From: an uncultured Eubacterium sp.
GTDB lineage: Bacteria; Bacillota_A; Clostridia; Lachnospirales; Lachnospiraceae
Direction: 5' to 3'
Assembly: GCA_948468465.1 (NCBI GenBank)
Contig: CAOKJJ010000103.1
Coordinates: forward strand, 1-17,220
DNA length: 17,220 bases
Shown here: piece by piece, positions 1 through 17,220 of the stretch
Position numbering within the stretch: position 1 is the stretch's first letter
How the letters are laid out: each line of letters starts with the position of its first letter
Program-made: the position numbers and the translations under genes
The notes under the pieces: generated by a model
Told to the model about the DNA's origin: nothing
Database searches by the model: none
What the model saw: only the letters and a program-made list of their open reading frames with translations

Positions 1-51
1 CGCAAAGTGGGGAGTGCAGATCGCGGGAATGATTTTTCAAACACGCTCTAG
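1..51 (+). CDS. possible 3' end of an upstream gene (partial)
   Basis: Frame 1 is open from the window edge to a TAG at 49-51 and would give a 16-residue tail. It is too short to recognise. The only support is that the next gene starts 26 bases later with its own ribosome site. Frame 2 is also open here and runs on to 286, so the choice of frame is weak. Nothing else is seen in the first 77 bases. Confidence 0.2.
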   Translation, partial: RKVGSADRGNDFSNTL

Positions 52-77
52 GAAGGCATATTGGAGAATGTTTGGGA

Positions 78-2627: not shown

Positions 2628-2700
2628 CAAAATATAACCAAAAGAAAAGATATCTTAAAAGCACAGTTATCTTTAGCTAAACATATGTTGTTGGTTTGCA

Positions 2701-2729
2701 TTGACTCTGCGCTATGAGAAAGATATAAT
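2701..2729 (+). promoter_or_regulatory. sigma-A type promoter for the AAA-like/PD-(D/E)XK gene
   Basis: TTGACT (2701-2706), a 17-base spacer and a perfect TATAAT (2724-2729). Transcription would start near 2736, about 34 bases before the ATG at 2770. The gene therefore has its own promoter. Confidence 0.75.
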
Positions 2730-2769
2730 GGATGTACGAGTTATACAATAAACAGGCAGGTAATGGAAT

Positions 2770-4533
2770 ATGGCAAGAACGATAGCAATAGGAGTCCAGG
2801 ATTTTGGCAAAATCATTGAAAATAACAGTTTTTATATAGACAAAACGCATTTTATCAAAGAATGGTGGGAAAGCAGGGATGAAGTTACCCTGCTTACGCG
2901 TCCCAGGCGTTTTGGAAAAACACTTACGATGAGCATGACAGAGTATTTTTTTTCTGTCAGGTATGCGGGCAGAAGTGATCTGTTTGAACACCTTATGATA
3001 TGGAAAGATGAAAGATATCAAAAAATGCAGGGCACATACCCTGTTATATTTCTGAGTTTTGCGGCTGTAAAGGCGGACCATTATGAGATGGCAAGGAAAA
3101 AAATATGCCAGTTGATTGTTAATCTGTATAAAGATTATGATTTCCTGGTGAGCAGCGGATTTTTAAAAGGGGAAGACCTTGCCTTTTATCAGAGGGTTTC
3201 TGTAAATATGGATCGTGCGGATCTGGAAAATTCGCTGAGCCAGTTATCCAGATATTTATGTCGTTATTATGGAAAAAAAGTGATACTTTTACTGGACGAG
3301 TATGATACGCCGATGCAGGAAGCCTATGTCAAAGGGTTTTGGGATGAACTGGCAGATTTAATGCGGGGGTTATTAAATTCTGCATTTAAAACAAATGCCG
3401 ATTTGGAGCGCGGCATGATGACGGGCGTTACAAGAGTCAGCAAAGAATCTATCTTTTCAGATTTGAACAATCTTGAAATCGTCACAGTAACTTCCTGTAA
3501 GTATGAGCAAACTTTTGGATTTACCGAAAAAGAAGTTTTTCAGGCGTTAGAGGAGTTTGGCCTGCAGGACCAGGCAGACGGGGTAAAACGGTGGTATGAT
3601 GGATTTCGGTATGGAGATTGCGGCAGCATTTATAATCCGTGGTCGATTACGCAGTTTCTTGACAAAAGGGAATTCAAACCGTATTGGGCAAATACAAGTT
3701 CCAATGCACTGGTTGGAAAGTTGATTCAAAAGAGCGACCGGGACATAAAAATAGCTGTTGAGGATCTGATAAAAGGAAAAACGATTCACATCGCGATGGA
3801 TGAACAGATTGTATTTCATGATCTGGATGACAATCCGGATGCTGTCTGGAGCCTGCTTCTTGCCAGCGGCTATTTGAAAATCACAGATATGTATTCTGCG
3901 AATCAGGAACATGGGGGATTACAGGAGCCTTTGGAATACGAACTGATGCTTACAAATCTTGAGATAGTTATGGTGTTCCAAAAGATGATACGCGGATGGT
4001 TTGGCGTATGCCAATCTTCTTACCATGATTTTATAAAATCACTGTTACACAATGACATGGATAGCATGAACGAATATTTAAGCAGAGTTACATTTGCAGT
4101 AGTTGGAAGCTTTGATTCAGCTGGCAAACCTTCTGGACGGATGCAGCCGGAAAAATTTTATCATGGGCTTGTACTTGGTTTGATCCTGGATTTGAGAAAT
4201 AAATATGTGATAACATCCAATCGGGAAAGCGGGTTCGGAAGATATGATATCCTTTTAGAACCGCGTAGTATAACAGATGATGCGATCCTTTTTGAATTTA
4301 AAGTATTTCACGCTAAAAAGGAAAAAAGCCTCGAAGATACTGTACAGGCAGCCATACAGCAGATAATAGTTAAAAAATACGCAGCAGCATTGGAAGAAAA
4401 GGGTGTGCCAAAGGAAAAGATTCGCATTTATGGGATTGCATTTAAAGGGAAAGAAGTTCTGGTGGATGGAGGATATCTCAGCGAATTTGAAAAGAATCTT
4501 AAAAAAGATCTTCTAAATCCGGGTCATCTGTGA
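2770..4533 (+). CDS. AAA-ATPase-like / PD-(D/E)XK nuclease superfamily protein (PF09820 + DUF1703 type)
   Basis: A 587-residue cytoplasmic protein of the family with an N-terminal AAA-ATPase-like domain and a C-terminal PD-(D/E)XK_9 (DUF1703) domain, common in Bacteroidetes and Clostridia and often multicopy. N-terminal signs are the conserved opening (FYIDKT), the degenerate Walker A RPRRFGKT at 44-51 and the Walker B LLLDEYDTP with Asp176/Glu177. At the C-terminus, GRYD (Asp493) followed by FEFK (Glu509, Lys511) matches the nuclease signature, so the nuclease triad looks intact. The biological role of the family is not established; a selfish or defence-related role is only a guess. The start is supported by a promoter just upstream, but the ribosome site (AGGTAATGG) is moderate. 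The 3' end overlaps the convergent regulator gene by 21 bases, with no terminator visible between them. Confidence 0.88.
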   Translation: MARTIAIGVQDFGKIIENNSFYIDKTHFIKEWWESRDEVTLLTRPRRFGKTLTMSMTEYFFSVRYAGRSDLFEHLMIWKDERYQKMQGTYPVIFLSFAAVKADHYEMARKKICQLIVNLYKDYDFLVSSGFLKGEDLAFYQRVSVNMDRADLENSLSQLSRYLCRYYGKKVILLLDEYDTPMQEAYVKGFWDELADLMRGLLNSAFKTNADLERGMMTGVTRVSKESIFSDLNNLEIVTVTSCKYEQTFGFTEKEVFQALEEFGLQDQADGVKRWYDGFRYGDCGSIYNPWSITQFLDKREFKPYWANTSSNALVGKLIQKSDRDIKIAVEDLIKGKTIHIAMDEQIVFHDLDDNPDAVWSLLLASGYLKITDMYSANQEHGGLQEPLEYELMLTNLEIVMVFQKMIRGWFGVCQSSYHDFIKSLLHNDMDSMNEYLSRVTFAVVGSFDSAGKPSGRMQPEKFYHGLVLGLILDLRNKYVITSNRESGFGRYDILLEPRSITDDAILFEFKVFHAKKEKSLEDTVQAAIQQIIVKKYAAALEEKGVPKEKIRIYGIAFKGKEVLVDGGYLSEFEKNLKKDLLNPGHL

Positions 4534-4956
4534 GCCAAGCAGAGCAAAATTGTGGCAGTATAACAGATCATTGACCTGCATAATGGTCTGCCTGCGCTGT
4601 ATGGCGTACAAAATCAGGGCGTCACGCGCATCTCTTGCATATAATTCCCGGTTGCCGGACAGCCTGAGCATTTTCTGTGTTTCCTGGTCGGTGAGTCGCA
4701 GTCCGAAAGACAGGGCGATCAGCTTATCTCTGGACGGTGTTTTTTCGCCTGAAAAGATCTGATACACATAGGCGCGGTCAAGCAGTGAGCCACGCACAAC
4801 TTCGGCACGGCTTAACTTTTTTTGGGACAGCAGCATATGCAGGTGCGCAGATAAAGTACCGTGCAGCAGCTGTGCCTGGTTTTTTGTCAGAAAATCCTCT
4901 GCATCCGTGGCATTTTTAATTTCATGATATAATTCTTCAGTTGATAGTTGTTTCAT
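4513..4956 (-). CDS. XRE-type helix-turn-helix regulator next to a kinase
   Basis: A 147-residue cytoplasmic protein. A helical N-terminal segment (1-35) is followed by an XRE/Cro-like helix-turn-helix at about 36-92, with the pattern LHMLLSQKKLSRAEVVRGS then AYVYQIFSGEKTPSRDKL. A helical C-terminal part (95-147) is rich in Arg and Asp. The start has a good ribosome site (TAGGAG, minus strand) and a promoter upstream. It is divergent from the Ser/Thr kinase gene, an arrangement I know from Lachnospiraceae, so it may control or be phosphorylated by that kinase (inference). Its 3' end overlaps the convergent PD-(D/E)XK gene by 21 bases. Confidence 0.75.
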   Translation of the reverse strand: MKQLSTEELYHEIKNATDAEDFLTKNQAQLLHGTLSAHLHMLLSQKKLSRAEVVRGSLLDRAYVYQIFSGEKTPSRDKLIALSFGLRLTDQETQKMLRLSGNRELYARDARDALILYAIQRRQTIMQVNDLLYCHNFALLGSQMTRI

Positions 4957-4985
4957 CTTGCATCTCCTACCTGGTTTTTGCTATA

Positions 4986-5014
4986 ATTATACAAAATCAG
5001 TGTAAATCTGACAA
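4986..5014 (-). promoter_or_regulatory. promoter for the XRE-type regulator (minus strand)
   Basis: Read on the minus strand: TTGTCA (5014-5009), 17 bases, then TATAAT (4991-4986), about 30 bases before the ATG at 4956. On the plus strand a weaker TTGCTA/TGTAAA pair with 17-base spacing overlaps the same stretch and could serve the kinase, so the divergent promoters may share one control region. Bases 5022-5062 are a purine-rich run of imperfect AGACAGAAA units. Confidence 0.7.
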
Positions 5015-5062
5015 TAGTAAAAAAAGAAAGACAGAAAAACAGACAGAAAGACAGGCAGAAGG

Positions 5063-6583
5063 ATGGAATATATTGAAATAGAATTGCTCAAGCAGAGCGA
5101 TAAAAGCACGGTGCATCTTGTGCGTGAAAAAGAGGGAGGACAGGTTTTTGTCCGAAAACGGCTGAAAGGGCGGCTTGAGGTTTATGAAATACTAAAAAAC
5201 TGTCCGCATGCCGGACTGCCGAAGCTGTATGAGGTGGAACTGTCGGATGAGGAAACGACGGTGATCGAAGAATATATCAAGGGACAGCCGTTAGGCCGTG
5301 AGGAATTGTCGGAACAGCAGCTGCGAAAGATTGTCAAAGAGCTGTGCGGCGTGCTTGGGATGCTGCATGAAAAAGGAGTGATCCACCGTGATTTGAAGCC
5401 GTCTAATATTCTTTTGGATGAGGACGGGCATATTCGCCTGATTGATTTTGATGCGGCGCGTATCCCCAAGGATAAGAGGGAGTCTGACACAAGGCTGCTG
5501 GGTACACGTGGATATGCGCCTCCGGAACAGTATGGATTTGCACAGACTGATGTGCGGACAGACATTTATGCGCTTGGCGTTACGTTAGAACAGATCTTTG
5601 GGGACAAGGCACGAAAACCGCATTACCGGCGTGTGTTTCAAAAGTGCAAAAGGCTTGATCCGAGAAAACGGTATCAGTCTGTACAGCAGGTAGAACGTGC
5701 CTTTTTTCACAGAAACCGAAGTGTCTGGTATGGTTCGGCAGCGCTGCTGTTGCTGTTTGCCGCTGTTTGGTTATATTCGCAAGAGCAAGAGGGTACTGAT
5801 GGGCAAAGGTCACCAGATGCACTCTCTGCACAAGAAAAAGATTCTGATAAAGCAGCATCATTGACGGTGCTTCCGGCACCGGAAAATCCGCGCTGGAATG
5901 GCGATACCGGGATTGCGTTATGGGATGCTGCGTCAGATCAGGACAGCAGCAGTGATTATAGGTACCATTGGGAGCTGTACTGGCAAAAAACAGCCCAATC
6001 GCCGGACGTACACAGTTCGGTGCCAGTACAGCAGGGTGATATGACATGGAGTCGTAATTATATAGAGGAAACATCTACCTTTCAGGTAAGTGTATCCAAA
6101 AACTTTCAGAAAAACGGCTATTATTTTTTTGCGGTGTCTGCGAAAGGAGACGGAGTGCAGTATGCGGACAGTCCTTATGCAATATCCGATCTCTTTGCAT
6201 ATACAGGTGAAGATGCCCCCTCACTGCCAGACCCTGCCGGACTGGAATGGAAGATATTGGATACAGACAGCGGAAGAGCTGACTGTTATGCGGTATGGGG
6301 GAATCTGGACGCTTATGAAGATGCGGATAGATTTCAGGTACGCGTATACAATGCATCTGGCGAATTTGTGGGCAATAATATCTGGTCAAAGGCGAATATT
6401 CTATCCATAGGACAGGGAGGGGTCTGGATAGACCCTAAGATGTTAACAAAAGAAGGAAGCCCATACCGCTTTACGATACAGGTATATTCGTCACGGCCAA
6501 ATAAGTTTCAGTCAACGAATATGCCGGATCCTGTGCCGGAAGAATATTTTAGCCCGTGGTATGATGCTGCGGAAAAAATGTGA
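5063..6583 (+). CDS. membrane-anchored Ser/Thr protein kinase with C-terminal extracytoplasmic domain
   Basis: A 506-residue Hanks-type kinase. The kinase domain spans about 1-215: catalytic loop HRDLKPSN at 108-115, metal-binding triplet DFD (128-130) instead of DFG, then GTRGYAPPEQYG at about 147-158 with the APE-like motif, and DIYALG at 167-172. The N-lobe has VFVRKRL with a candidate ATP-binding Lys32, but the glycine-rich loop is poorly matched and the N-lobe is short. A single transmembrane helix at about 222-239 separates the kinase from a 265-residue outer part with two beta-rich, Trp/Tyr-rich segments that may sense ligand or cell-wall material. No PASTA repeats are visible, so it is not PrkC-like. 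The ribosome site before ATG 5063 is weak. It is divergent from an XRE regulator and closed by a strong terminator that overlaps its stop codon. Targets are unknown. Confidence 0.85.
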   Translation: MEYIEIELLKQSDKSTVHLVREKEGGQVFVRKRLKGRLEVYEILKNCPHAGLPKLYEVELSDEETTVIEEYIKGQPLGREELSEQQLRKIVKELCGVLGMLHEKGVIHRDLKPSNILLDEDGHIRLIDFDAARIPKDKRESDTRLLGTRGYAPPEQYGFAQTDVRTDIYALGVTLEQIFGDKARKPHYRRVFQKCKRLDPRKRYQSVQQVERAFFHRNRSVWYGSAALLLLFAAVWLYSQEQEGTDGQRSPDALSAQEKDSDKAASLTVLPAPENPRWNGDTGIALWDAASDQDSSSDYRYHWELYWQKTAQSPDVHSSVPVQQGDMTWSRNYIEETSTFQVSVSKNFQKNGYYFFAVSAKGDGVQYADSPYAISDLFAYTGEDAPSLPDPAGLEWKILDTDSGRADCYAVWGNLDAYEDADRFQVRVYNASGEFVGNNIWSKANILSIGQGGVWIDPKMLTKEGSPYRFTIQVYSSRPNKFQSTNMPDPVPEEYFSPWYDAAEKM

Positions 6584-6630
6584 AAAATCCAGAACGCTTT
6601 TGCAGCTGTACAAAGCGTTCTGGATTTTTT
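6583..6630 (+). terminator. strong intrinsic terminator after the kinase gene
   Basis: A perfect 18-base-pair stem (6583-6600 with 6612-6629) around an 11-base loop, with an A-run at the 5' edge and T-run at the 3' edge. It should also work on the minus strand. It begins at the last base of the kinase stop codon. Confidence 0.92.
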
Positions 6631-6690
6631 ATATGCGTTTTTGGGAATGTAAAAGGAACATATAAAGAAGATGATAAAGCACATTTAAAT

Positions 6691-6734
6691 GTCTGCTGCC
6701 AGCAGACCTACAGCAACAAAATATTTTTTATAAT
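6691..6734 (+). promoter_or_regulatory. -10 box with palindromic operator in place of a -35 box
   Basis: A perfect TATAAT lies at 6729-6734, but 16 to 18 bases upstream there is no acceptable -35 hexamer. That position is occupied by the perfect inverted repeat GTCTGCT-GCC-AGCAGAC (6691-6707). The layout suggests an activator-dependent or repressed promoter for the Sel1/WG operon. Bases 6735-6881 would be a leader of about 140 bases. An in-frame ATG at 6774 inside this leader has no ribosome site. Confidence 0.5.
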
Positions 6735-6881
6735 AGAATTTAGAAAACAGGATTTTGCTTCGCGAGGGGCCGGATGCCTGCAGCCACTACATTTTCATAC
6801 GGTCTGTGCAGCAAATGCGCAGACCTGCCTGAACTGTTACCTGCTGACATCAGAGAAATTAAAAAAGAGGAGAAAATGGTG

Positions 6882-8912
6882 ATGACTTTGGTAAAAATTA
6901 TTGTAGTACTTTTTATAATTGGTATGGTTTGGACAACAGTACAAAAAATATACGCCAGTACAAAGATCGCTGTACAAATGAGTTCTGATCCTGAATCAGC
7001 CTTACAGATAGCTGAAAAGAGTTTAGAGTCAGATGCATTCACGCTGGATGAATATGAGAATCAGTTAATAAGAATAGCTAAAGATACCGGATATGCTGGA
7101 GCGATGCTGAAATTGGCTGAATTTTATACAGGCAAACGTTATAAAAATAAGAAGAATGAAGAAAAAAGTAAGTATTGGAAAGAGGAAGCAGTAAAAGCGG
7201 GTGATTTTGAAAGCATTATTGATCACTATGGCTTTTCAGATTATGATGTATCTAGCGGAGATTATAACGAGATCATTCAAAATTTACAAACCGCAGAAGA
7301 AAAAGCTGTATCAAAAGAAATAAAAGATGGAATTACTCATATGAAAGGAATCGTTTATTTTAAAATGGGAAACACCGATGCAGCGAAACAGTTGTTTGCG
7401 GATATTTCTTTACCAGAGCTTGCTAATGAAAGTAAATATATGACTTTTCAATGTTTAAAAAGAGAAATAAATGCAGCTGCAGCAGAAAAAATTTTAGAAG
7501 AATTGGAGTCCGGCGAATTTGAAATACCAGCTGATGATTATTTATGGTTATATAATTCTTATGCTGCTAAAAGAGATAGTGAGCCAGACTATGAATCAGA
7601 AATGAAATATGTTCAAAGGTATATTTCAAGCAAAGATGCAGATAAGGAAACGGCAAATAGGATTGGTGCGGATACATATTATCATGTGGCAAAAGCATTG
7701 CGGGAAGGAATGAAAGGTCATTTTCAGACAGATACATTGAGTGACGTTGAAGCACTTCAAAAGGCAGCAAAATTTGGGCATGTGGAAGCATTGTATGATG
7801 TTGGATTGGGATTTTGGACTGGAAATGGTCATTATATGCGCAATTATTATAAAGCAAATGAATATTTATTTCAAGCTGCACTGAAAGGACATAAACAGGC
7901 AGTAAACATTTTGAAGAAGCATGGTGTGGAAGGGATATTACTTTCATCTGCTCAGGAAGATGCAGTGACATATCGATTTATAGATGGTTACGAACTAAAG
8001 GCTTCCAAAGATATTATGAGATGGCTGCAGCTATACTATGGCCTTATTTATAAAGCATCTGTAGTAAAACGTGAATTTATGAGTGGATATTCGAAAAAAT
8101 TTCAATCATTTGATGAACTGGTTAATGGTATTCACTTGCTATATTCTGAACAGGTGGCTGAAATGCTCAGGTGGAGTGTTTTAGCAATGATGCATTTTGG
8201 GATTGATATATATGATGTAAACGATATTATGGCTGAATGCGGAGAGTTAAGTTTGCTGCCCCGTGTTCCGAATTTTGAGAATGGACTGGAGCAAATTGAT
8301 AGAAGAGCTTCACAGTTAAATATACATATGTCTTATGCACAGGCCGCCCGTGGATGCTGGAGTGGGGCAGGAATTGGAACTACAATTAAAGGTACAGTTA
8401 CTGCAGCTGCTAAGGCATCTGTAGCTGCTGGCATTATGAACATAGGCAGCGGAGTATTACATGGTATAGGAGACAGTATTATTAGTGCAATGAATAATTC
8501 TGAAATTAAAGGAATGGGAAAGAAGTTATTTGAGGATAAAAAAACAAAAAAAGAATTTGCAGATGCGGTGTTCTCTGCTTGTATGGAGATTGGCGTTGTT
8601 GTACGGAAAAATATAGAAACACAATGTAATATGAGCATGACGGCGTTGGAGGGATGTGTGAGGTATGGAAAGGAGAACCTTGCTGAACTGGATGACAGAA
8701 CCCTTAGGGCAAAAATCAACAATAATTTGTCAACCAGGAAAAATGAGTATGCATATGCATTATTAATAGAGGCGTTACGCCGTCATCCGCTTAATGGAGA
8801 TATTTATTTGAAGATTTTGGAGATTACAGGTAAACGTGCAAAATCTTTAACTGATAATGAAGCATATGAACCGATAGAACGGTATGCATGTGATTTTGGA
8901 ATTGTGCAATAG
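6882..8912 (+). CDS. membrane-anchored Sel1-like/TPR repeat protein
   Basis: About 676 residues. The first 22 residues form one hydrophobic helix (VKIIVVLFIIGMVW) that anchors a large alpha-helical domain. Sel1-like units are visible near residues 55-95 (AGAMLKLAEFYTGKR, then EKSKYWKEEAVKAGD) and around 300-345 (VEALYDVGLGFWTGNG, then ANEYLFQAALKGHKQA). The C-terminal third is different, with a Gly/Ala-rich stretch (about 485-530) that may pack against a membrane, followed by helical sequence with TPR-like character. Start choice: GAGGAG at 6867-6872 sits 9 bases before ATG 6882, 6 before GTG 6879 and 3 before ATG 6876; the longer reading from 6774 lacks a ribosome site. Sel1 proteins usually scaffold protein complexes or signalling. 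The gene is visibly more AT-rich than its left neighbours and is followed after 30 bases by the WG-repeat gene. No function can be assigned. Confidence 0.75.
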   Translation: MTLVKIIVVLFIIGMVWTTVQKIYASTKIAVQMSSDPESALQIAEKSLESDAFTLDEYENQLIRIAKDTGYAGAMLKLAEFYTGKRYKNKKNEEKSKYWKEEAVKAGDFESIIDHYGFSDYDVSSGDYNEIIQNLQTAEEKAVSKEIKDGITHMKGIVYFKMGNTDAAKQLFADISLPELANESKYMTFQCLKREINAAAAEKILEELESGEFEIPADDYLWLYNSYAAKRDSEPDYESEMKYVQRYISSKDADKETANRIGADTYYHVAKALREGMKGHFQTDTLSDVEALQKAAKFGHVEALYDVGLGFWTGNGHYMRNYYKANEYLFQAALKGHKQAVNILKKHGVEGILLSSAQEDAVTYRFIDGYELKASKDIMRWLQLYYGLIYKASVVKREFMSGYSKKFQSFDELVNGIHLLYSEQVAEMLRWSVLAMMHFGIDIYDVNDIMAECGELSLLPRVPNFENGLEQIDRRASQLNIHMSYAQAARGCWSGAGIGTTIKGTVTAAAKASVAAGIMNIGSGVLHGIGDSIISAMNNSEIKGMGKKLFEDKKTKKEFADAVFSACMEIGVVVRKNIETQCNMSMTALEGCVRYGKENLAELDDRTLRAKINNNLSTRKNEYAYALLIEALRRHPLNGDIYLKILEITGKRAKSLTDNEAYEPIERYACDFGIVQ

Positions 8913-8942
8913 GATTATGTACGAAGGGGGTATTGGATAATT

Positions 8943-10811
8943 ATGGAGAATATTTTGGTATGTTTGTTGCTAGCTGCACTTGCCGGTATACCAATTGGAT
9001 TGTTTTCAGCTATTATTAAAAAGATAAAGGGAAAATCCGCTAAAAAATCTTTGAAAATGACAGGTCTTTCAATTGCAGTATTTTTGGCAGTAGCATTCAT
9101 TTATCCGGAAACACCGGATGAAATGCCTGACACAGATAAAAATCAGGCAACAGCCGTATCTGGCGGAGCTGACCTACCGGCGCAAACAAAAGCAGATGAT
9201 GATATATCAGAAGAATTTGAAGACAAAACAGAAGAATTAGATAATGAAGATTCTGGTTCGAAGCAGGGTACAGGACATAGTGAGGAAGAAGAATACATTG
9301 GTGATAAATTGTGTCTGGACGAGACAACTGATTTTTCAGAGGGAAGAGCATGGGTGCAGTATAATGTAATGGATAAAGAAAAGGGCAGTGCAAAAGCATT
9401 TGCAGAAAGTGTCAGTGCAGCAATGGGTGATGATTTTGACCGCATTCAATATTTGGTGGAAAATTATGACTTGCGGGGAAACAAAGCTGCGTTAATTGAT
9501 ACAAATGGGAAAATTTTATGGGAATCTGAAGCCACAGAAAAAGATACTGTTTTGGAGCAAGTAAGTGAATTTAGGGATGGGCTGGCTTATTGTATATTCA
9601 ATGGAAACGATAAGAAAACCTATATCATTGTCGATGCGCAGGGAAATACTGTTTTTACAAGAGATTTTCATGAAGATGATATGGATGAAGATGATATGGA
9701 TTATATTATTCTCGGACATGGAGGCGGCCTGGTTTTAGCAGCCGAGCATGTAGCTGATTTCAGCACTAATGAATGGAGGATTGGGGCTATTGACAAAAAC
9801 GGGGCTATTGCTGTACCATTTCAGGTTTATGAAAATAAGCCAAATGAAGGGTTAGAAGCTGTTGAAGCTCCATCTGGAGAGGAACCAGATCCGAATTATG
9901 ATTACGATGGATATCTAAAATACCATGAACAGCTTGAGGCATATGAGGAATATGAGAGTGAATGCAGCGTTTCTTATCCGTTATCGTTTGATAATTATAA
10001 TAGAGAAGAGTCATGTGAATATTTAGGTGATGGGGTATTCGGCTTGTCTTGTCCAGAATGGAGTGTGCTGCTGAACATAAAAACACAGAAGATTATTTAT
10101 TCGTATGACAATTATATGGGAAGGCTGATTAGTACATTTATTACAAAATTTAAAGATGGCGTGGCAACGGTTGTTTATTCGGTCTTTCATGGACTTAAAA
10201 ACGAACAATATATTTCTTCTTTGAGAACAGACGGCACATTTACAGAAACCATATCGAATGATTGGATAAACTATCATTTAAAGAGTCATATGGAGTTTGG
10301 AGATGGTCTGGTATTTGTATCAGACACCGTTGCGCAAAATGAAATATATGGAGAGGTGATGCAGGAGAATCTAACAACGGGTGCATATTATGATAAAGAT
10401 GGCAGAAAAGTCATTGATTTTCCTGAATATGATGATAAAAACCTGTATTACTGTTGTACGCCGTTTCAAAATGGATATGCGGTTATGTACATTGAAGGTG
10501 CGGATGAATATCTGTATACTACCGTAATTAATAAAAAAGGAAAAAGAATGTTTGAGCCTAAAACGGGGTTTAATCCTTCGTACATAAGCGAGGACGGCAG
10601 ATATCTTACTGCTATTGGAAATGGATATCTTACTGTATTTGATATAAAAGGAAAAGCATTGATGGATATAAAGAGCAAAAGTATAAGTTCTAACTCTGAA
10701 TACAATGTGCATGATGAGATGATTAACGTCAATAATTTTTACGTGAATATTGAAAATGGAACAGTGATAGGTATGTATGAGAATGCGAAAGATTCTGTTA
10801 CGGTTTATTAA
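8943..10811 (+). CDS. membrane-anchored WG-repeat protein
   Basis: A 622-residue protein. Two hydrophobic helices (about 2-24 and 39-56) separated by a Lys-rich loop are followed by a highly acidic linker (about 58-120, Glu/Asp-rich). Then comes a long beta domain made of degenerate WG-type repeats of about 30-40 residues with the pattern F-x-DGLA..., then a strand, then I-D-x-x-G-x. Examples are FRDGLAYCIF, YIIVDAQGNTV, FKDGVATVVY, FGDGLVFVSD, FQNGYAVMYI and VINKKGKRMF. WG (KWG) repeats are thought to form beta-propeller-like binding surfaces; the partner is unknown. AAGGGGG at 8924-8930 lies 12 bases before ATG 8943. It is probably cotranscribed with the Sel1-like gene 30 bases upstream, so the two may act together at the membrane. 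A 15-base direct repeat near 9671-9700 encodes an Asp/Glu/Met-rich stretch. Confidence 0.8.
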   Translation: MENILVCLLLAALAGIPIGLFSAIIKKIKGKSAKKSLKMTGLSIAVFLAVAFIYPETPDEMPDTDKNQATAVSGGADLPAQTKADDDISEEFEDKTEELDNEDSGSKQGTGHSEEEEYIGDKLCLDETTDFSEGRAWVQYNVMDKEKGSAKAFAESVSAAMGDDFDRIQYLVENYDLRGNKAALIDTNGKILWESEATEKDTVLEQVSEFRDGLAYCIFNGNDKKTYIIVDAQGNTVFTRDFHEDDMDEDDMDYIILGHGGGLVLAAEHVADFSTNEWRIGAIDKNGAIAVPFQVYENKPNEGLEAVEAPSGEEPDPNYDYDGYLKYHEQLEAYEEYESECSVSYPLSFDNYNREESCEYLGDGVFGLSCPEWSVLLNIKTQKIIYSYDNYMGRLISTFITKFKDGVATVVYSVFHGLKNEQYISSLRTDGTFTETISNDWINYHLKSHMEFGDGLVFVSDTVAQNEIYGEVMQENLTTGAYYDKDGRKVIDFPEYDDKNLYYCCTPFQNGYAVMYIEGADEYLYTTVINKKGKRMFEPKTGFNPSYISEDGRYLTAIGNGYLTVFDIKGKALMDIKSKSISSNSEYNVHDEMINVNNFYVNIENGTVIGMYENAKDSVTVY

Positions 10812-10852
10812 TGCTTGATATGGAATTGCATCCTGCATGGATAGTTTGAGTG

Positions 10853-10886
10853 CCAGGCCGCTTTGAAAGGCGTTTATGCGGCCTGG
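10853..10886. other. GC-rich hairpin after the WG-repeat gene
   Basis: CCAGGCCGC (10853-10861) pairs perfectly with GCGGCCTGG (10878-10886) around a 16-base loop. There is no T-run on either side, so it is not a standard intrinsic terminator, although it sits between two converging genes (WG gene and catalase). Just downstream, 10895-10911 holds a second small stem, GGGAT/ATCCC around GGTTCAA, that resembles but does not match a tRNA T-arm. Confidence 0.6.
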
Positions 10887-10936
10887 AGATGATGAGGGAT
10901 GGTTCAAATCCCCCCACCAGCTTGATTCTTTGCGTT

Positions 10937-11146
10937 TTATGATTTTTGACGGATATCGAATTCCGGATTAAAAGCATAGAAATTCTTCGAATCCAAATGT
11001 TCTTTTACGACATTAAGCCCTTCGCCAAAGCGCTGGAAGTGCACGATTTCACGTTCTCTTAAAAAACGAATCGGGTCGCATACTTCAGGATCTTTTACGA
11101 GGCGAAGAATATTGTCATAAGTTGTGCGTGCTTTTTGTTCTGCTGC
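10937..11146 (-). pseudogene. cotJC: manganese catalase, C-terminal fragment (split by the serine-recombinase element)
   Basis: The minus strand encodes AAEQKARTTYDNILRL, then FLREREIVHFQRFGEGL and a tail ending near FNPEFDIRQKS with a TAA at 10939-10937. This is the conserved second half of CotJC-type manganese catalases, which turn H2O2 into water and oxygen with a di-manganese centre. The Glu of AAEQ and the His of EREIVHF correspond to family metal ligands. The fragment has no start codon of its own and begins at the element junction. Its upstream partner is the fragment at 15016-15240; joined through TCTGCTGC the frame is continuous. As it stands it cannot give active enzyme. Confidence 0.88.
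11139..11146 (+). repeat. left attachment site core (TCTGCTGC)
   Basis: Chromosomal side to the left (catalase C-terminal half), element side to the right (gattttgtaagg). The 8 bases are identical to 15016-15023. Serine recombinases exchange at a 2-bp dinucleotide and need little flanking identity, so the true crossover lies somewhere within these 8 bases. Confidence 0.82.
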
Positions 11147-11181
11147 GATTTTGTAAGGGCAGCCTGTAAACAGGTAGCCGG

Positions 11182-12759
11182 CTAGAAATTCCAGTGGATT
11201 TCTACAGGCACGTTCGTGGTGCCAGCGACTCGCCTGCCGACCGATATATAGTCAATCAGCTTGTCAACGGTTTCCCGGTCTAATTTTTCAAGACAGGCGT
11301 ACGATTCAGAGAGCTGGCCGCGATTGTCTGCGGTCTGTATTTTTATTTCTGTTTCTATTTCTATGTTTGCAAGCTGTTTTTCCGCTTTCAGGATCAATGT
11401 TTCAAAACGCTCTTTTTCAGACGTAAATTCTTTGGAAAAATCCAGATATTCACTTTCCGATATGACAGCTTTTACCTTGTCAAAATACAGTTCCCGGATA
11501 CATTTTGCATAGGCGGCTGTCTTTTTCCGATAGGCGGCGATATCCTTTTCCAGCCGTTTCTTTTGCGTAGTCAGATGATTTTGAAATGCAGGATTTTCTT
11601 TTAATTCGTCTTTCTCCAGATATTCTGCGCAAAACCTGTTGATTTCCTTTTGGACAGCCTGCTCTAACTTTGTCACGGAAATAAAAGCTCCTTCGCAGGC
11701 TTCTTTTGATACATGCCGGTTGGAACAACACAGGTACCGCCGCCCATCTGACATTTTACGGGTGCGCATGGTATAGCCGCAGTTGATGCAGCGGACTTTC
11801 CGGGCAAACAGGCCGATTTCTCCGGTGGAAAATGGTTTTGCCCTCTGGCCAACGAGAGATTGGACCTGATCCCATAGTTCCCGGTCAATAATCGCTTCGT
11901 GAGTACCTTCTACAATATACCACTGGCTTTTGGGGCGGGGCTTGTTCTGCTTTGTTTTATAAGAAACACTCCCGTATTTTCCCTGAACCATGTTTCCGAT
12001 ATAAATCTCATTGGTCAGCATACTGGAGATGGCAGAATACTTCCAGAGGGTGCTCTGCTTTCTGAGCGGCTGCTGATACCGCAGGCCGTGCAGGCGCTTG
12101 TATTCTGTGGGGTTTGGAATCCCACGGTCATTTAACATCCGTGCAATCGCAGTCTTGCCATATCCCTGCGAGAATAAAGTAAATACCTCACGGACAACCG
12201 CGGCGGCTTCTTCGTCGATGATCAAATGTCCTTTCTGCGCAGGGTCTTTTTTATAACCGTATAAGGCAAAGGATCCAATATGTAACCCGTTGATCCTGCG
12301 GTTTGTCAGCACACTCTTGATATTGTCAGACATATCCTCCAAATACCACTCATTGACAAGACCGTTGATTTGGCGTGACTTTTTATTGCCTTTGTTTGCC
12401 GTGTCAGCGTTATCCACAATGCTGACGAACCGCACGCCCCAGATGGGGAACAGCCCATGAATATATTTTTCGACCAATTCCAATTCACGGGTAAAACGGG
12501 ACTGGGTTTTACAGAGCACAATGTCGATGTTTCCATTTTCCGCATCGGACAGCAGCCTGTTAAATTCCGGGCGGTTTCTGTCTGCGCCTGTGTAATCATC
12601 ATCACTGTAAATGCGGTAGATATCCCAGCCCTGTTCCAGCGCATACTGAATCAGCATGGATTTCTGGTTCTGGATACTGTTGCTGTCATCGGATTCGCAT
12701 GGTTTGTTTTTATCTTCTTCGGATAAGCGGCAATAAATGCCAACCTTTAAGTTTGTCAT
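11182..12759 (-). CDS. large serine recombinase (site-specific integrase)
   Basis: 525 residues; cuts and rejoins DNA at att sites through a serine-phosphodiester intermediate. N-terminal resolvase domain about 1-150, with nucleophile Ser13 in YCRLS, then SIQNQ and the arginine-rich region SRFTRELELVE. The recombinase domain follows (about 165-290, with ALYGYKKD and GYGKTAIARMLNDRGIPNP). A zinc ribbon sits at about 320-360 (CINCG, then CCSN and a further Cys). A long coiled coil at about 385-475 and a C-terminal segment end near VPVEIHWNF. Start: the reading frame extends 20 codons further upstream, but ATG 12759 has TAGGAG just before it, while the upstream part lies inside the companion ORF. 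It ends about 35 bp from the left att core. All catalytic signs look intact, so it may be active; no separate excision factor is recognisable other than possibly the 46-aa ORF. Confidence 0.93.
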   Translation of the reverse strand: MTNLKVGIYCRLSEEDKNKPCESDDSNSIQNQKSMLIQYALEQGWDIYRIYSDDDYTGADRNRPEFNRLLSDAENGNIDIVLCKTQSRFTRELELVEKYIHGLFPIWGVRFVSIVDNADTANKGNKKSRQINGLVNEWYLEDMSDNIKSVLTNRRINGLHIGSFALYGYKKDPAQKGHLIIDEEAAAVVREVFTLFSQGYGKTAIARMLNDRGIPNPTEYKRLHGLRYQQPLRKQSTLWKYSAISSMLTNEIYIGNMVQGKYGSVSYKTKQNKPRPKSQWYIVEGTHEAIIDRELWDQVQSLVGQRAKPFSTGEIGLFARKVRCINCGYTMRTRKMSDGRRYLCCSNRHVSKEACEGAFISVTKLEQAVQKEINRFCAEYLEKDELKENPAFQNHLTTQKKRLEKDIAAYRKKTAAYAKCIRELYFDKVKAVISESEYLDFSKEFTSEKERFETLILKAEKQLANIEIETEIKIQTADNRGQLSESYACLEKLDRETVDKLIDYISVGRRVAGTTNVPVEIHWNF

Positions 12760-12761
12760 GT

Positions 12762-12902
12762 TCACGCTCCTAAAATATTCCCTTTGTTTTTTTCTTTCTG
12801 ATGGATTAATTCCATCCACAGCTTTGTAAAGGCTTCTTTGGCATCCTTTTCGCTGCCGCTTTTGAAAATATTTTTACAAATTACCTGTGTTTCTTTTGCC
12901 AT
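12762..12902 (-). CDS. 46-aa companion ORF upstream of the serine recombinase
   Basis: The sequence starts MAKETQVICKNIF and is rich in Lys; it contains KEAFTKLWMELI near the middle. It has an excellent ribosome site (AGGAGG, minus strand, 7 bases before the ATG), and its TGA (12764-12762) is only two bases from the recombinase ATG, so the two are translationally linked. Small proteins of this type sit upstream of recombinases in clostridial elements; a role as regulator or directionality factor is possible but unproven. It contains no recognised domain. Confidence 0.7.
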   Translation of the reverse strand: MAKETQVICKNIFKSGSEKDAKEAFTKLWMELIHQKEKNKGNILGA

Positions 12903-12990
12903 TGGATTCCTCCTGTTTTTGCTTTGCAGTAACAGCTTATGCAGAAGTGCCTGTACGCTATGTAAAGATTCAGGAATTATGATTACTTTT

Positions 12991-13027
12991 CACGGGTCAG
13001 GAATGCGCACTAGCTGCGCGTTCCGTG
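12991..13027. other. GC-rich inverted repeat in the divergent control region of the element
   Basis: GGAATGCGCA (13000-13009) faces TGCGCGTTCC (13015-13024) around CTAGC, with an outer CAC/GTG pair. It lies between the two divergent units of the element (recombinase to the left, GH1 to the right), so it could be an operator or an RNA hairpin. No convincing minus-strand promoter for the recombinase unit is seen in 12903-13076. Confidence 0.55.
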
Positions 13028-13036
13028 AGAACATGA

Positions 13037-14581
<1,545 letters not shown>

Positions 14582-14641
14582 AAAAGGCAGCGGCGTAAGC
14601 GAAGCTGTCAAAGCTGACAGGAAAGGAAACAGACAGTAGTT

Positions 14642-14974
14642 ATGGCGATTGTTGTGAATTTGTATTATACGGGAACGAACGGGGCTGCGCGAAGATTTGC
14701 GGAGGAAATGGTGAATAGCGGGACTGTGGCGAAAATCCGCGCAGAGAAAGGAAATCTGAGGTATGAATATTTCTTTCCGATGGAGAATTCAGAGACGGTG
14801 ATGCTGATAGATGCCTGGGAGGATCAGCAGGCCATAGATGAGCATCATGCCTCGCCTATGATGGAGACGATAGCAAAGCTTCGAACGAAGTACGATCTCC
14901 ATATGAGAGTGGAGCGGTATCAGACGGATGAGAACGGAGTGCCAGAGAAGGATCGGGATTTTATTCGGGAATAA
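14642..14974 (+). CDS. ABM-family small protein (putative quinol monooxygenase, YgiN-like)
   Basis: A 110-residue cytoplasmic protein with the antibiotic-biosynthesis-monooxygenase (dimeric alpha/beta barrel) pattern: MAIVVNLYYTG strand, helix AARRFAEEM, strand NLRYEYFFPM, then VMLIDAWEDQQAIDEHHASP and a helix MMETIAKL. The conserved W-x-D...H-x-x-S/T-P motif is clear. Relatives oxidise quinols or break down haem, but many have unknown substrates. It follows the GH1 gene by 60 bases with a modest ribosome site (AAAGGA, 14 bases before the ATG), so the two are probably cotranscribed. It is the last gene before the right end of the element. Its metabolic link with GH1 is not evident. Confidence 0.8.
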   Translation: MAIVVNLYYTGTNGAARRFAEEMVNSGTVAKIRAEKGNLRYEYFFPMENSETVMLIDAWEDQQAIDEHHASPMMETIAKLRTKYDLHMRVERYQTDENGVPEKDRDFIRE

Positions 14975-15013
14975 GGCGCTGCAAAAAAGAATGTTGTTTT
15001 TGCACAATCGCCC
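14975..15013 (+). terminator. hairpin at the right end of the element (possible terminator, possible att arm)
   Basis: TGCAAAAA (14980-14987) pairs with TTTTTGCA (14997-15004), with GGCG/CGCC outside it. It starts directly after the ABM stop codon and lies next to the att core. The stem is AT-rich, so terminator strength is doubtful; it may serve recombinase binding instead. Confidence 0.45.
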
Positions 15014-15015
15014 CA

Positions 15016-15023
15016 TCTGCTGC
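15016..15023 (+). repeat. right attachment site core (TCTGCTGC)
   Basis: Element side on the left (gcacaatcgcccca), chromosomal side on the right (catatcttccgtcag, antisense of catalase codons LTEDM). Same 8 bases as 11139-11146. Confidence 0.82.
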
Positions 15024-15240
15024 CATATCTTCCGTCAGATCAGTAATCGGGTCGCCTTTTGACTGGAATTCACAGGCATTAAATGGAATACCGCCAGCGG
15101 CTTGCGGCCAAAGTGCAAGCGTATGGTCCACATAATATTTATCAAAGCCGGATGCCACGATTTCTTCCGGTGTTAAGTTGCGGGTAAGCTGATGGACAAT
15201 GGCACAAATAATTTCCAGATGAGCAAGTTCTTCGGTACCC
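15016..15240 (-). pseudogene. cotJC: manganese catalase, middle fragment (5' part missing)
   Basis: The minus strand encodes GTEELAHLEIICAIVHQL, then RNLTPEEI, FDKYYVDHT, GGIPFNACEFQSKGD and ITDLTEDMAA up to the element junction. These are residues of roughly 65-140 of CotJC-type catalase and include the E...H metal ligands of GTEELAHLE. At the junction the frame runs into element sequence and stops at 14963-14961. At the other end the match ceases at about 15240 (the GGTACC of GTEE): the preceding sequence in this frame shows no catalase similarity, so the first 60-odd residues with one more metal ligand are gone or displaced beyond the window. Confidence 0.85.
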
Positions 15241-15455
15241 AGAGAAGCAGCGGTAATGTTCCATTTATTGTATTTTGGGACGGGCATGAAACGGTGGGAT
15301 TTCCGATACATAGCTTTTCGACGTTTGAGAGGATAAAAAAGTATGATGAAAATGAGGATGCGGGGAATGTCGGGAGGCCTTATTCTATTGATGTTTGCGA
15401 CACTCCGAGATGGATAAATCTCTATGCGGCAGCCAATGACGATGTTTATTTATGA
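15241..15455 (+). pseudogene. C-terminal tail of an unrecognised protein, cut at the catalase breakpoint
   Basis: An open frame ending at TGA 15453-15455 encodes about 70 residues (contains PFIVFWDGHETVGFPIH and TPRWINLYAAANDDVYL). The frame also reads back to an ATG at 15192, but that part is antisense of catalase, so the 87-codon ORF is a chimera. A proper terminator follows 14 bases later, supporting that this is the real 3' end of a former plus-strand gene. I do not recognise the family. Confidence 0.45.
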
Positions 15456-15469
15456 TACGGAATGTAAGG

Positions 15470-15511
15470 AACTCAGTTTGTCTATATATTCTTGGACAGA
15501 CTGAGTTTTTT
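15470..15511 (+). terminator. intrinsic terminator
   Basis: AACTCAGTTTGTC (15470-15482) pairs with GACAGACTGAGTT (15495-15507) with one G-T wobble, loop of 12, followed by a T-run. It closes the truncated ORF ending at 15455. From 15512 to 15559 nothing is seen. Confidence 0.85.
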
Positions 15512-15559
15512 ATATCAAATCACACCATCGAATGATTTATTTATGGCGTTTTACTATCA

Positions 15560-15588
15560 TTGACTTTTCATACAAAAGAGGATATACT
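15560..15588 (+). promoter_or_regulatory. sigma-A type promoter now feeding AbiE remnants
   Basis: TTGACT (15560-15565), 17 bases, TATACT (15583-15588). It lies where a promoter of an AbiE-type operon could be, but the coding start of AbiEi is missing downstream, which suggests an internal deletion after the promoter. Confidence 0.65.
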
Positions 15589-15642
15589 ATAACAAATCAC
15601 ATAATTGTTGAGACATTTTTGTGTGGATTCATAGAGGTGTAA

Positions 15643-15723
15643 TCAATCCCAAACCTTATGAAATATGCAAAGGAACTCAGGGTGCAGAAGAAAGTAAAGG
15701 AATTGATTGGAGTGTGGTTGTAG
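15643..15723 (+). pseudogene. abiEi: AbiEi antitoxin remnant (C-terminal end only)
   Basis: After a stop at 15640-15642 the frame reads NLMKYAKELRVQKKVKELIG and ends at TAG 15721-15723. This resembles the conserved C-terminal end of AbiEi-type antitoxins (LM-x-YA-x-x-LRV-x-x-KV...). The winged-helix N-terminal and most of the protein are absent. The stop overlaps the GTG of the next fragment, as in intact abiEi-abiEii pairs. The assignment rests on a short stretch read by eye. Confidence 0.45.
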
Positions 15724-15890
15724 TGGCTGATATTGCGGCTTCTGTTTTGGCAAGGCTAAGGAATAAGGCAAAGGCGGCTGGCATTAGTTATCAGCAATGC
15801 TTAATAGAAGTTCCTATTAAACGAGATAGAATCTCTATGTATAGGAACTACAAATGCTATATTGGAGAACAAGCAGCATTGGATGATTGA
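15723..15890 (+). pseudogene. abiEii: AbiEii nucleotidyltransferase toxin remnant (N-terminal end)
   Basis: From the GTG at 15723 the frame begins ADIAASVLARLRNKAKAAG and ISYQQCL, the typical N-terminal helix of AbiEii/AbiGii toxins. After about 27 residues the family pattern stops: the expected LKGG...D-x-D nucleotidyltransferase core is absent, and the frame ends at 15890 after about 28 unrelated residues. An intact AbiEii is about 280-300 residues. The fragment is therefore dead as a toxin. Its last codons overlap the next promoter. Confidence 0.5.
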
Positions 15891-15915
15891 GTTTAAATAT
15901 AAAAAGTGCTATAAT
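15887..15915 (+). promoter_or_regulatory. strong promoter of the attenuator-like leader
   Basis: TTGAGT (15887-15892), 17 bases, perfect TATAAT (15910-15915); start expected near 15922, which leaves a leader of about 276 bases before the next full gene. Confidence 0.8.
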
Positions 15916-15921
15916 ACAAAA

Positions 15922-16197
15922 AGTCCTATTTCATATCGAAAAATGATGAAAGGGAATATGAGAAGAAAAAGTTTATTTGATACTTTGATGTGAAGTTATC
16001 GTTTGGAGGATATTATGTGCAGGAATAAAAAAAGAAAAAATAAAGGTTTACTCCATGCAAAGCCAGTGTAATAAGCGACATTTGCATGGAGGAATATGAG
16101 TCGCTGATATAGAATATCTGGCTTTGCTGCTTGACATTAGAACCTAAAAATACACATTTCAAGTGGTCTTTAGGAGAATCAAGGAGGAAGCCTGCGT
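15922..16197 (+). promoter_or_regulatory. structured mRNA leader with mutually exclusive hairpins (attenuator-like)
   Basis: An early hairpin (TTTCAT 15929-15934 with ATGAAA 15946-15951) precedes a short ORF with a good ribosome site (16015-16071). The end of that ORF lies within a choice of structures. Structure A pairs CTCCATGCAAA (16051-16061) with TTTGCATGGAG (16081-16091). Structure B pairs GCAAAGCCAG (16057-16066) with CTGGCTTTGC (16118-16127), with an inner AGCGAC/GTCGCT pair (16074-16079, 16100-16105). The two share 16057-16061 and cannot coexist. A third stem, CCTAAA/TTTAGG (16143-16148 and about 16170-16175), precedes the AAGGAGG site. A ribosome stalled or slow on the leader ORF would decide between A and B, as in antibiotic-sensing leaders. 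No T-run follows A or B, so control might be translational or act by processing. Confidence 0.6.
16015..16071 (+). CDS. 18-aa leader peptide
   Basis: ATG at 16015 follows GGAGG (16005-16009) by 5 bases. The peptide is MCRNKKRKNKGLLHAKPV, very rich in Lys/Arg. Its TAA (16069-16071) falls in the loop of hairpin A and beside the 5' arm of hairpin B, so ribosome position would control RNA folding. Basic leader peptides before ribosome-protection and other antibiotic resistance genes have this layout. I cannot confirm identity to a named leader from memory. Confidence 0.6.
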   Translation: MCRNKKRKNKGLLHAKPV

Positions 16198-16461
16198 ATG
16201 AAATATGTGAATGCAAATGACATTCTCCCCGACATGCTGATTGAGGAATTACAAAAATATGTCCAGGCAGGATATATTTATATTCCAGTTAAGGGCGAAC
16301 AGCATAAATCTTGGGGTGAATTGTCTGGTTATCGGAAAGAACTTGCAAGACGCAATAAAGCTATCATTGAAGAATACCGCAGAGGTGTTTCTATTGAAAA
16401 ACTTGCGGACAAATATTATCTTTCGATATATGCTATAAGAAAAATAATATATCAGAAATAA
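16198..16461 (+). CDS. CD3324-family helix-turn-helix protein
   Basis: 87 residues. The opening MKYVNANDILPDMLIEELQKYVQAGYIYIP and a later HKSWGEL-x-x-YRKELARRN match the CD3324-type small proteins of Clostridia. The C-terminal half (about 58-85, EEYRRGVSIEKLADKYYLSIYAIRKI) is a helix-turn-helix, so DNA binding is likely though no targets are known. Ribosome site AAGGAGG (16181-16187), 10 bases before ATG. It is the first full gene behind the attenuator-like leader and has its own terminator, so the leader seems to control this gene, or a gene that once stood here. Such proteins often neighbour acetyltransferases, as here. Confidence 0.78.
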   Translation: MKYVNANDILPDMLIEELQKYVQAGYIYIPVKGEQHKSWGELSGYRKELARRNKAIIEEYRRGVSIEKLADKYYLSIYAIRKIIYQK

Positions 16462-16464
16462 TTG

Positions 16465-16498
16465 GAGAGGGCTGCCGTATCAATGGCAGCTCTCTTTT
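16465..16498 (+). terminator. intrinsic terminator after the CD3324-type gene
   Basis: GAGAGGGCTGCC pairs with GGCAGCTCTCTT (12 bp with two wobbles) around GTATCAAT, ending in a TCTCTTTT run. It separates the leader-driven unit from the acetyltransferase gene. Confidence 0.8.
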
Positions 16499-16528
16499 AT
16501 ACTGATTATTTCTGTATCATTCTATGTA

Positions 16529-16557
16529 TTGAGGATGTAACAACGAAAGGGTAAAAT
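16529..16557 (+). promoter_or_regulatory. probable promoter of the acetyltransferase gene
   Basis: TTGAGG (16529-16534), 17 bases, TAAAAT (16552-16557), about 36 bases before the ATG. Confidence 0.55.
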
Positions 16558-16592
16558 TACGGTGTATTATGTATTGACAGGAGGATAACAAG

Positions 16593-17220
16593 ATGGCAGA
16601 TTTGCAAAAAATATTTCCGAGGACAGGGGATACACAGACTGTCTATTTAAAGAACGTAGTTACGAATCCCAATATTGAGATTGGCGATTATACGATGTAT
16701 AACGATTTTGTAAGTGACCCTGCGGAATTTGAGAGAAATAATGTACTGTACCATTATCCAATCAATCACGATAAGCTCAGGATTGGAAAATTCTGCTCGA
16801 TTGCTTGTGGGGCAAAATTTCTTTTCAATAGCGCAAACCATACGATGGCTTCTTTATCAACCTATCCGTTTCCATTGTTTTTTGAGGAATGGGGGCTTGA
16901 GAAAAAGAGTGTCGAGGAAGCTTGGGATAATAAGGGAGATATAAACATCGGAAATGATGTATGGATTGGATATGAAGCGGTTATTTTAGCAGGCGTGACG
17001 GTTGGGGACGGAGCAGTGATTGGAACCCGTGCGGTTGTCACGAAAGATGTGCCGCCCTATACCATTGTGGGCGGCGTCCCTGCAAAACCAATAAAAAGAC
17101 GCTTTTCTGATGATAGAATAGAACAGTTGCTTAAAATGAGATGGTGGGACTGGTCGGAAGAAAAGATTGCAGGGAACATAAAGGCGATACAGTCGGGATG
17201 TATGGAACAACTGAAAGGGG
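16593..17220 (+). CDS. Vat/CatB-type xenobiotic O-acetyltransferase (partial, runs off the window)
   Basis: 209 codons are present without a stop. A left-handed beta-helix (hexapeptide) enzyme that uses acetyl-CoA to O-acetylate hydroxylated drugs. Visible: NPNIEIGDYTMYND; LYHYPIN and DKLRIGKFCSIACGAKF; the active-site His83 in SANHTM, followed by STYPFPLF; hexapeptide turns INIGNDVWIG, VILAGVTVGDGAVIG; then VGGVPAKPIKRRFSD and the C-terminal helix MRWWDW. This pattern is closest to streptogramin A acetyltransferases (Vat), which are about 210-220 residues, so only the last few residues should be missing. The wider CatB-related group includes enzymes without a resistance role. AGGAGG (16579-16584) is 8 bases before ATG. 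Transcribed from its own probable promoter after a terminator. Confidence 0.85.
   Translation, partial: MADLQKIFPRTGDTQTVYLKNVVTNPNIEIGDYTMYNDFVSDPAEFERNNVLYHYPINHDKLRIGKFCSIACGAKFLFNSANHTMASLSTYPFPLFFEEWGLEKKSVEEAWDNKGDINIGNDVWIGYEAVILAGVTVGDGAVIGTRAVVTKDVPPYTIVGGVPAKPIKRRFSDDRIEQLLKMRWWDWSEEKIAGNIKAIQSGCMEQLKG

Follow-up and report, generated by a model that had tools for sequence, protein, structure and literature searches.

A skin-like large serine recombinase (LSR) element that the mother cell removes prior to expression of the interrupted gene is our preferred reading of a segment that splits the spore-coat manganese catalase gene cotJC in an uncultured Lachnospiraceae bacterium, and we place the probability of this reading at roughly three in four. 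The anatomy of the element, its GA core, its frame-restoring junctions, a second cut in the same gene, the recurrence of the arrangement and a promoter-like signal were all read from sequence; from these we infer the timing of excision, the role of a small ORF and the rebuilding of the gene.

Anatomy of the element

The window, i.e., the whole stretch of DNA that was analysed, comprises 17,220 nt (positions 1 to 17,220, forward strand, of contig CAOKJJ010000103.1, assembly GCA_948468465.1, uncultured Eubacterium sp., Lachnospiraceae) and holds the following features:

10937..11140, minus strand: cotJC 3' piece, from EQKARTTYDN... to the stop, core GA included (PF05067, E 1.4e-8; translation)
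11139..11140, minus strand: core dinucleotide GA (TC on the plus strand) of the C-half junction, GA in 51/51 C-side junctions of relatives
11141..11163, minus strand: element arm GCTGCCCTTACAAAATCGCAGCA of the C-half junction, 15/23 positions mirroring the other arm in the window
11182..12759, minus strand: LSR of about 525 aa, open frame reaching 12819 (PF00239, PF07508, PF13408)
12762..12902, minus strand: small ORF, 46 aa, candidate recombination directionality factor, preceding the recombinase in relatives
12938..12961, minus strand: putative sigma-E-type promoter, ATA at 12959-12961, 17 bp, CATA at 12938-12941, with the box GTACAGGC between
13085..14581, plus strand: cargo gene of the GH1 family, 6-phospho-beta-glucosidase-like (PF00232, E 3.8e-129)
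14642..14974, plus strand: cargo ABM-domain gene, quinol monooxygenase-like (PF03992, E 4.8e-13)
14993..15015, minus strand: element arm TGGGGCGATTGTGCAAAAACAAC of the N-half junction, from the comparison of junctions with relatives
15016..15017, minus strand: core dinucleotide GA (TC on the plus strand) of the N-half junction, GA in 36/36 N-side junctions of relatives
15016..15239, minus strand: cotJC middle piece, GTEELAH...EDMAA, cut at both ends (PF05067, E 1.6e-9)
15236..15239, minus strand: GGTA overlap, the second cut site (site B) in cotJC, from the junctions of six sequences (G001, G004, G008, G011, G007 and the window)
15240..17220, no strand: near end of the site-B element, extending beyond the window end (alignment with L070 and L025)

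The initial annotation, which held that a serine-recombinase element precisely splits a catalase gene, was borne out: two minus-strand PF05067 pieces enclose the recombinase-bearing segment, and the Resolvase (PF00239), Recombinase (PF07508) and zinc-ribbon (PF13408) domains of the LSR all score above cutoff. The 3' end of the recombinase was said to abut one junction and lies 36 bp from the repeat on the side of the C half. Measured from core to core (11139 to 15016), the element is 3,877 bp long and contains the recombinase, the 46-aa ORF directly upstream of it, the GH1 gene, which NCBIfam 6-phospho-beta-glucosidase models match only below their cutoffs, and the ABM-domain gene. As these four genes include no structural phage genes, the element is not classed as a prophage, and it has no recognised genes for mobilisation or conjugation. 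The ABM-domain cargo gene recurs with 70% identity at L025:8050-8379, beside a site-B end of cotJC. Downstream of cotJC, the window also encodes a protein resembling AAA-ATPases plus PDDEXK_9 (2770-4533, plus strand).

Crossover core and reading frame

The 8-bp repeat TCTGCTGC that the initial annotation placed at the element boundaries is present at 11139-11146 and at 15016-15023, although the comparison of junctions shows that only GA is conserved and that the other bases vary. The L060 N side was left out of the junction counts as spurious. The six bases preceding GA differ among relatives, and in 11 of 51 C-side junctions it is the element that supplies GCACCA, so that the host reading is regained only through a crossover at GA. 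The true core is thus the 2-bp GA, the 8-bp repeat being partly a coincidence. The consensus sequences of the outer arms in relatives (GTTGTTCTTAtATGATTGCAGCA and TGGTGCGATTtTGTAAGAACAAC) show mirror symmetry at 18/23 positions, as compared with 15/23 for the window arms.

When the two pieces are joined at the core, DMAAEQKARTTYDN is read in frame, i.e., a single crossover at GA would restore the cotJC frame across the site-C element. In the initial annotation, deletion of the segment brings back the conserved catalase sequence in frame; this holds for the junction, but the whole gene would not be regained, owing to the second cut at 15236-15239.

Further cut sites in cotJC

The upstream catalase piece begins at GTEE, whereas full-length CotJC has ~60 further residues ahead of it; the missing 5' part (about 60 codons) and the site-B recombinase lie beyond the window end. 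Here the 135 bp adjoining site B align with E. plexicaudatum (L070), and positions 15984-17220 are ~96% identical to L025. Since a second LSR site cuts the upstream piece, removing the site-C element alone would leave cotJC incomplete, and the gene of the window is divided into at least three pieces. The site-B element also carries, at 16593-17219 (plus strand) and reaching the window end, a hexapeptide acetyltransferase like those of the Vat/CatB group, which scores 243 bits, below the NCBIfam Vat cutoff of 300.

Four cut sites were distinguished among relatives, A (~residues 25-35), B (~61), C (~135, the site of the 3,877-bp element) and D (~173), each adjoined by its own LSR type. The recombinases at A, B and D are roughly 480-600 aa long and share 21-28% identity with that of the window (BLAST). 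A search with the joined CotJC sequence yielded pieces in the genomes of 12/12 relatives, with three pieces in G001, G004, G007, G008, G010 and G011 (the last piece on a separate contig in G008 and G011) and an intact second copy in G005.

In order to sample more widely, 75 genomes from the family of G003, fully listed, were surveyed. Matches to cotJC occurred in 44 of them, 25 with intact copies only and 16 with complementary pieces, 13 of the latter without an intact copy and 3 (G034, G037 and G048) with one. The remaining three held an intact copy plus one piece (G050), one piece (G058), or two overlapping fragments with a frameshift-like break (G040). G003, the centre of the sample, was a known carrier beforehand, and leaving it out gives 15/43 split. 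Among the 16 split genomes the pieces share one contig in 8, and a draft contig break could contribute in the other 8. Stop flags were raised in eight survey rows; the aligned cotJC pieces are stop-free in G014, G023, G033 and G049, as is the first piece of G048. Strand and order of the pieces are kept in all genomes with the pieces on one contig (10/10 in the 12-genome search and 8/8 in the 75-genome sample, G003 counting in both). This conserved order was dropped as a sign of excision, since any simple insertion keeps it, and it argues only against later rearrangement.

Recurrence of the site-C element

A scan with the recombinase returned 338 relatives, the best 80 of which were retained. 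Of these best 80 loci, 76 carry a fragment of cotJC with its break at the same codon, the exceptions being L013, L018, L029 and L068; this recombinase family recurrently splits cotJC across many genera and several families of Bacillota. What had been taken for a single insertion event is a real element at site C, yet it is one of two in the cotJC of the window and belongs to a large recurrent family. It does not match the clade of multi-targeting LSRs with DUF4368 (PMC10083194), as this domain (listed for many relatives) reaches 22.3 bits in the window recombinase against a cutoff of 25 and 76/80 loci share one target gene. A related recombinase lies away from cotJC in Holdemanella biformis (L029:7563 onward), in a genome with no cotJC match, where the flanking reading frame resembles a PTS mannose IID gene as judged by eye. 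In the IMG/VR viral collection, 6 of 10 contigs bearing a related recombinase (L203-L208) hold a cotJC piece as well, which shows that such regions have been catalogued as viral.

With the window included, the recombinase 3' end points toward the C half in 47 of 81 sequences and toward the N half in 27, with 7 unplaced. On the recombinase tree, orientation requires 9 changes as compared with 22 in shuffles; it has thus flipped repeatedly yet been inherited in between. Both element ends were present in 12 sequences (window included, L060 left out for its spurious N side), and these elements measure about 2.9 to 7.3 kb. The cargo is variable: MATE transporters, chemoreceptors, an ABC transporter, a Na/Pi cotransporter, GmrSD-like and Schlafen-like proteins, a methyltransferase, a ParE-like toxin and regulators. 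The cargo scan covered 20 proteins from 11 other loci; 4 proteins had no match, and structural phage families of Pfam were absent from all 20.

Two observations had been named in advance as speaking against the initial annotation, namely unrelated DNA between the same catalase pieces in related strains and boundaries differing from the repeat. Both were made in part: the cargo differs, as do the bases outside GA, but the GA core is constant, and the proposal stands because the recombinase, the small ORF and the attachment arms are homologous.

Small ORF and promoter-like signals

In 75 of the 81 sequences (counting the window), the recombinase is preceded by an ORF of 41-61 aa. This ORF has no match in Pfam or PHROG and is a candidate directionality factor. 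Upstream of it, a conserved motif consists of ATA at -35 and CATANNNT at -10, usually spaced by 17 bp. The relaxed pattern ATA-N15..18-CATANNNT matched 62 of the 74 regions (counting the window but not L052, which lacks a start), as compared with a mean of 0.98 and a maximum of 4 in 100 dinucleotide shuffles and with 15/903 upstream regions of control ORFs; these 74 regions are mutually homologous and hence non-independent, and the pattern was fixed after a first look at the data. A strict sigma-E pattern, based on the B. subtilis consensus, was found in 52/74 (shuffled mean 0.67; 6/903 controls). By consensus match, this suggests that a sigma-E-type promoter precedes the pair of small ORF and recombinase. 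In C. difficile, the -35 element is ATA at sigma-E sites and AC at sigma-K sites, and the spoIIID promoter reads ATA-N16-CATATATA (PMC3789822). A box GKACWWGC between -35 and -10 is conserved in relatives (12949-12956 in the window) and is perhaps a site for SpoIIID or for the recombinase.

The other recombinase types gave a different picture. For types A and D there was no enrichment of the promoter pattern beside cotJC (4/18 vs. 4/12 elsewhere and 1/5 vs. 3/13, respectively), while for type B the difference (3/7 vs. 1/17) is suggestive only; similar promoter-type sites lie near some site-B recombinases (L113, L120, L129, L179 and L181). Elements of types A and D may have their directionality factors elsewhere, or may be simple insertions.

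Ahead of cotJC itself the sigma-E pattern was found in only 6/44 regions. By contrast, 31 of the 51 distinct regions had a sigma-K-type pattern, AC-N16/17-CATANNNTA, 350-900 bp upstream of the gene, against a mean of 1.16 after mononucleotide shuffling, and the catalase operons of C. difficile are controlled by sigma-K (PMC3789822). With a sigma-E-type site at the recombinase and sigma-K-type sites upstream of cotJC, sigma-E would precede sigma-K action.

Selective constraint and mobility

The window and E. plexicaudatum (L070) share the cuts at B and C and have closely similar, homologous site-B ends; between them, dN and dS were 0.012 and 1.07 for the middle piece and 0 and 0.91 for the 3' piece, which places both cotJC pieces of this doubly cut pair under strong constraint. 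Median dN/dS was 0.135 and 0.134 over all usable pairs, and 0.105 and 0.123 in pairs with comparable recombinase divergence (L060 and L078 excluded for N, L043 for C); a one-codon indel left unaligned probably explains the C-piece outliers with L001 and L022. The values over all pairs were set aside as proof of gene rebuilding because the elements move. In many pairs, recombinase and cotJC divergence are discordant (the L007 and L009 recombinases show no synonymous difference, while their cotJC is saturated), a mismatch from which horizontal spread of many elements follows; intact pieces alone are then no proof of reconstitution, as an insertion may be recent.

Such near-identical recombinases in hosts with synonymously saturated cotJC could also mean that a dispensable cotJC is nothing but a conserved docking site for LSRs, where the gene is inactivated and the pieces are intact for being recent. 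The intact paralogs kept in some genomes fit this, as do insertional mutants of two C. difficile spore catalases, which lost catalase activity and had no significant coat defect (PMC11222575). Against it stand the mother-cell-type promoter ahead of the recombinase pair, the strong constraint seen for the middle and 3' pieces alike in the pair cut twice, whose site-B ends are homologous, and the presence of split copies only in 13/44 genomes, and we regard it as unlikely.

Uninterrupted counterparts exist in metagenomes: over 201 aa, P0124 matches the joined pieces of E. plexicaudatum at 100% identity, and P0125 shows zero mismatches to the middle and 3' pieces of the window across 140 residues, with only the last residue missing. 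These proteins establish the joined frame as real, whether the source was excised or never-inserted DNA, and might stem from strains that were never invaded. Tandem insertions at one cotJC site, with an attP-like junction between neighbouring elements, were seen in L023 (L023:3039-10230) and probably in L018 (L018:1564). Reading the L018 site as a free circle was rejected, since that genome has cotJC pieces, one probably on the same contig; a tandem insertion is the best reading because L023 has the identical layout between two elements. An exact-match scan of IMG/VR for the full attP gave 0 hits. A relaxed pattern matched 4 viral stretches, discarded for right arms that look unrelated, and, among 397 genomes of the family, a single one whose matching stretch is identical to the L023 tandem junction. 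Intact alleles with identical protein, tandem insertions that show past integration, and a core and arms that are intact and apparently usable would likewise suit a low-frequency excision and reinsertion during growth, so that catalase-on and catalase-off populations would arise independently of sporulation timing. The promoter, however, fits a mother-cell sigma factor, and excision is linked to sporulation in published relatives (PMC5025042, PMC5595907), which makes such a switch highly improbable.

Proposed excision during sporulation and its significance

The site-C segment combines an insertion within a sporulation gene, an internal site-specific recombinase and frame-restoring attachment sites, as skin-like elements do; the sporulation status of cotJC is taken from its coat role and sigma-K control in C. 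difficile (PMC3789822). In the preferred, skin-like reading, the recombinase would excise the site-C element as a circle and another recombinase would remove the site-B element; later, transcription of the reassembled cotJABC operon by sigma-K would follow, and the catalase would become part of the spore coat. The forespore chromosome would retain the elements, which could thus pass to offspring with little burden on the host. Only split cotJC in 13/44 surveyed genomes with matches supports this reading; the intact second copy in some hosts (G005; G034, G037, G048) and the lack of promoter enrichment for recombinase types A and D speak against it. More speculatively, and with perhaps a modest chance of being right, cotJC could be a common docking gene for several unrelated LSR lineages, with four sites and up to three or more pieces in a genome, in which small cargo-bearing site-C cassettes excise only in the doomed mother cell, successive excisions rebuild the gene, and circles may escape at lysis and spread between species.

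Only a handful of sporulation genes are known to be rebuilt in a programmed way, namely sigK, spsM, spoVFB, gerE and yabG (PMC10747680), whereas here 16 of the 44 surveyed genomes that match cotJC have this coat gene split; the cuts fall at four sites, belong to different types of recombinase and sometimes occur repeatedly in a single genome. Carriers available in culture are Eubacterium plexicaudatum ASF492, Sporofaciens musculi WCA-9-b2, Roseburia faecis M72, Parablautia intestinalis D8-82 and Anaerotignum lactatifermentans DSM 14214. If excision is mother-cell specific, gut commensals would share a developmental rearrangement of DNA that is widespread among them; recombinases paired with directionality factors could be drawn from it, and it would offer a setting in which to study how mobile elements come to settle at harmless sites.

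Comparison with known systems

In line with the initial annotation, which knew of no described element with this target, the open-access PubMed Central literature (preprints and subscription papers lying outside this scope) yielded neither a description of cotJC as a split gene nor a report of manganese catalase together with a serine recombinase. The closest solved sequence relative of the window recombinase is TnpX, and LSRs of the TnpX/TndX type, found in mobilisable and conjugative transposons, use a GA core. The window element differs from these transposons in that no mobilisation or conjugation genes were recognised and one target gene dominates.

The available portions of PMC10747680 and PMC5595907 do not mention cotJ, nor does the available main text of PMC10083194 mention catalase, a study in which many unrelated LSRs hit the same genes. 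A cotJC-like ORF downstream of attR of the C. difficile prophage phi027 was treated as a bacterial gene (PMC11222575).

Among gene-intervening elements of sporulation, gin in gerE of Bacillus cereus resembles the cotJC element in being non-phage and in combining a serine recombinase with an additional factor, a candidate one in the case of cotJC, but it spans 28.6 kb with three recombinases, as compared with 3.9 kb and one recombinase here, and has another target gene (PMC5595907). Similarly, yin in yabG of Clostridium botulinum is clostridial, sits in a late mother-cell gene and pairs a serine recombinase with a putative directionality factor; that study found it in a single strain, whereas cotJC elements occur in many genera (PMC10747680). 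The nearest parallel to our preferred reading is skin in sigK of C. difficile, likewise an LSR element splitting a mother-cell sporulation gene, for which a small directionality factor is under a sigma-E promoter and SpoIIID and the forespore copy is retained, a scheme to which the cotJC element is likened from its sequence (PMC5025042). The two differ in target (sigK as opposed to the coat catalase gene cotJC), in expression, as the skin recombinase is made vegetatively while the small ORF and recombinase described here lie behind a single promoter-like site, and in format, the cotJC elements being cargo-bearing cassettes of 3-7 kb (PMC5025042).
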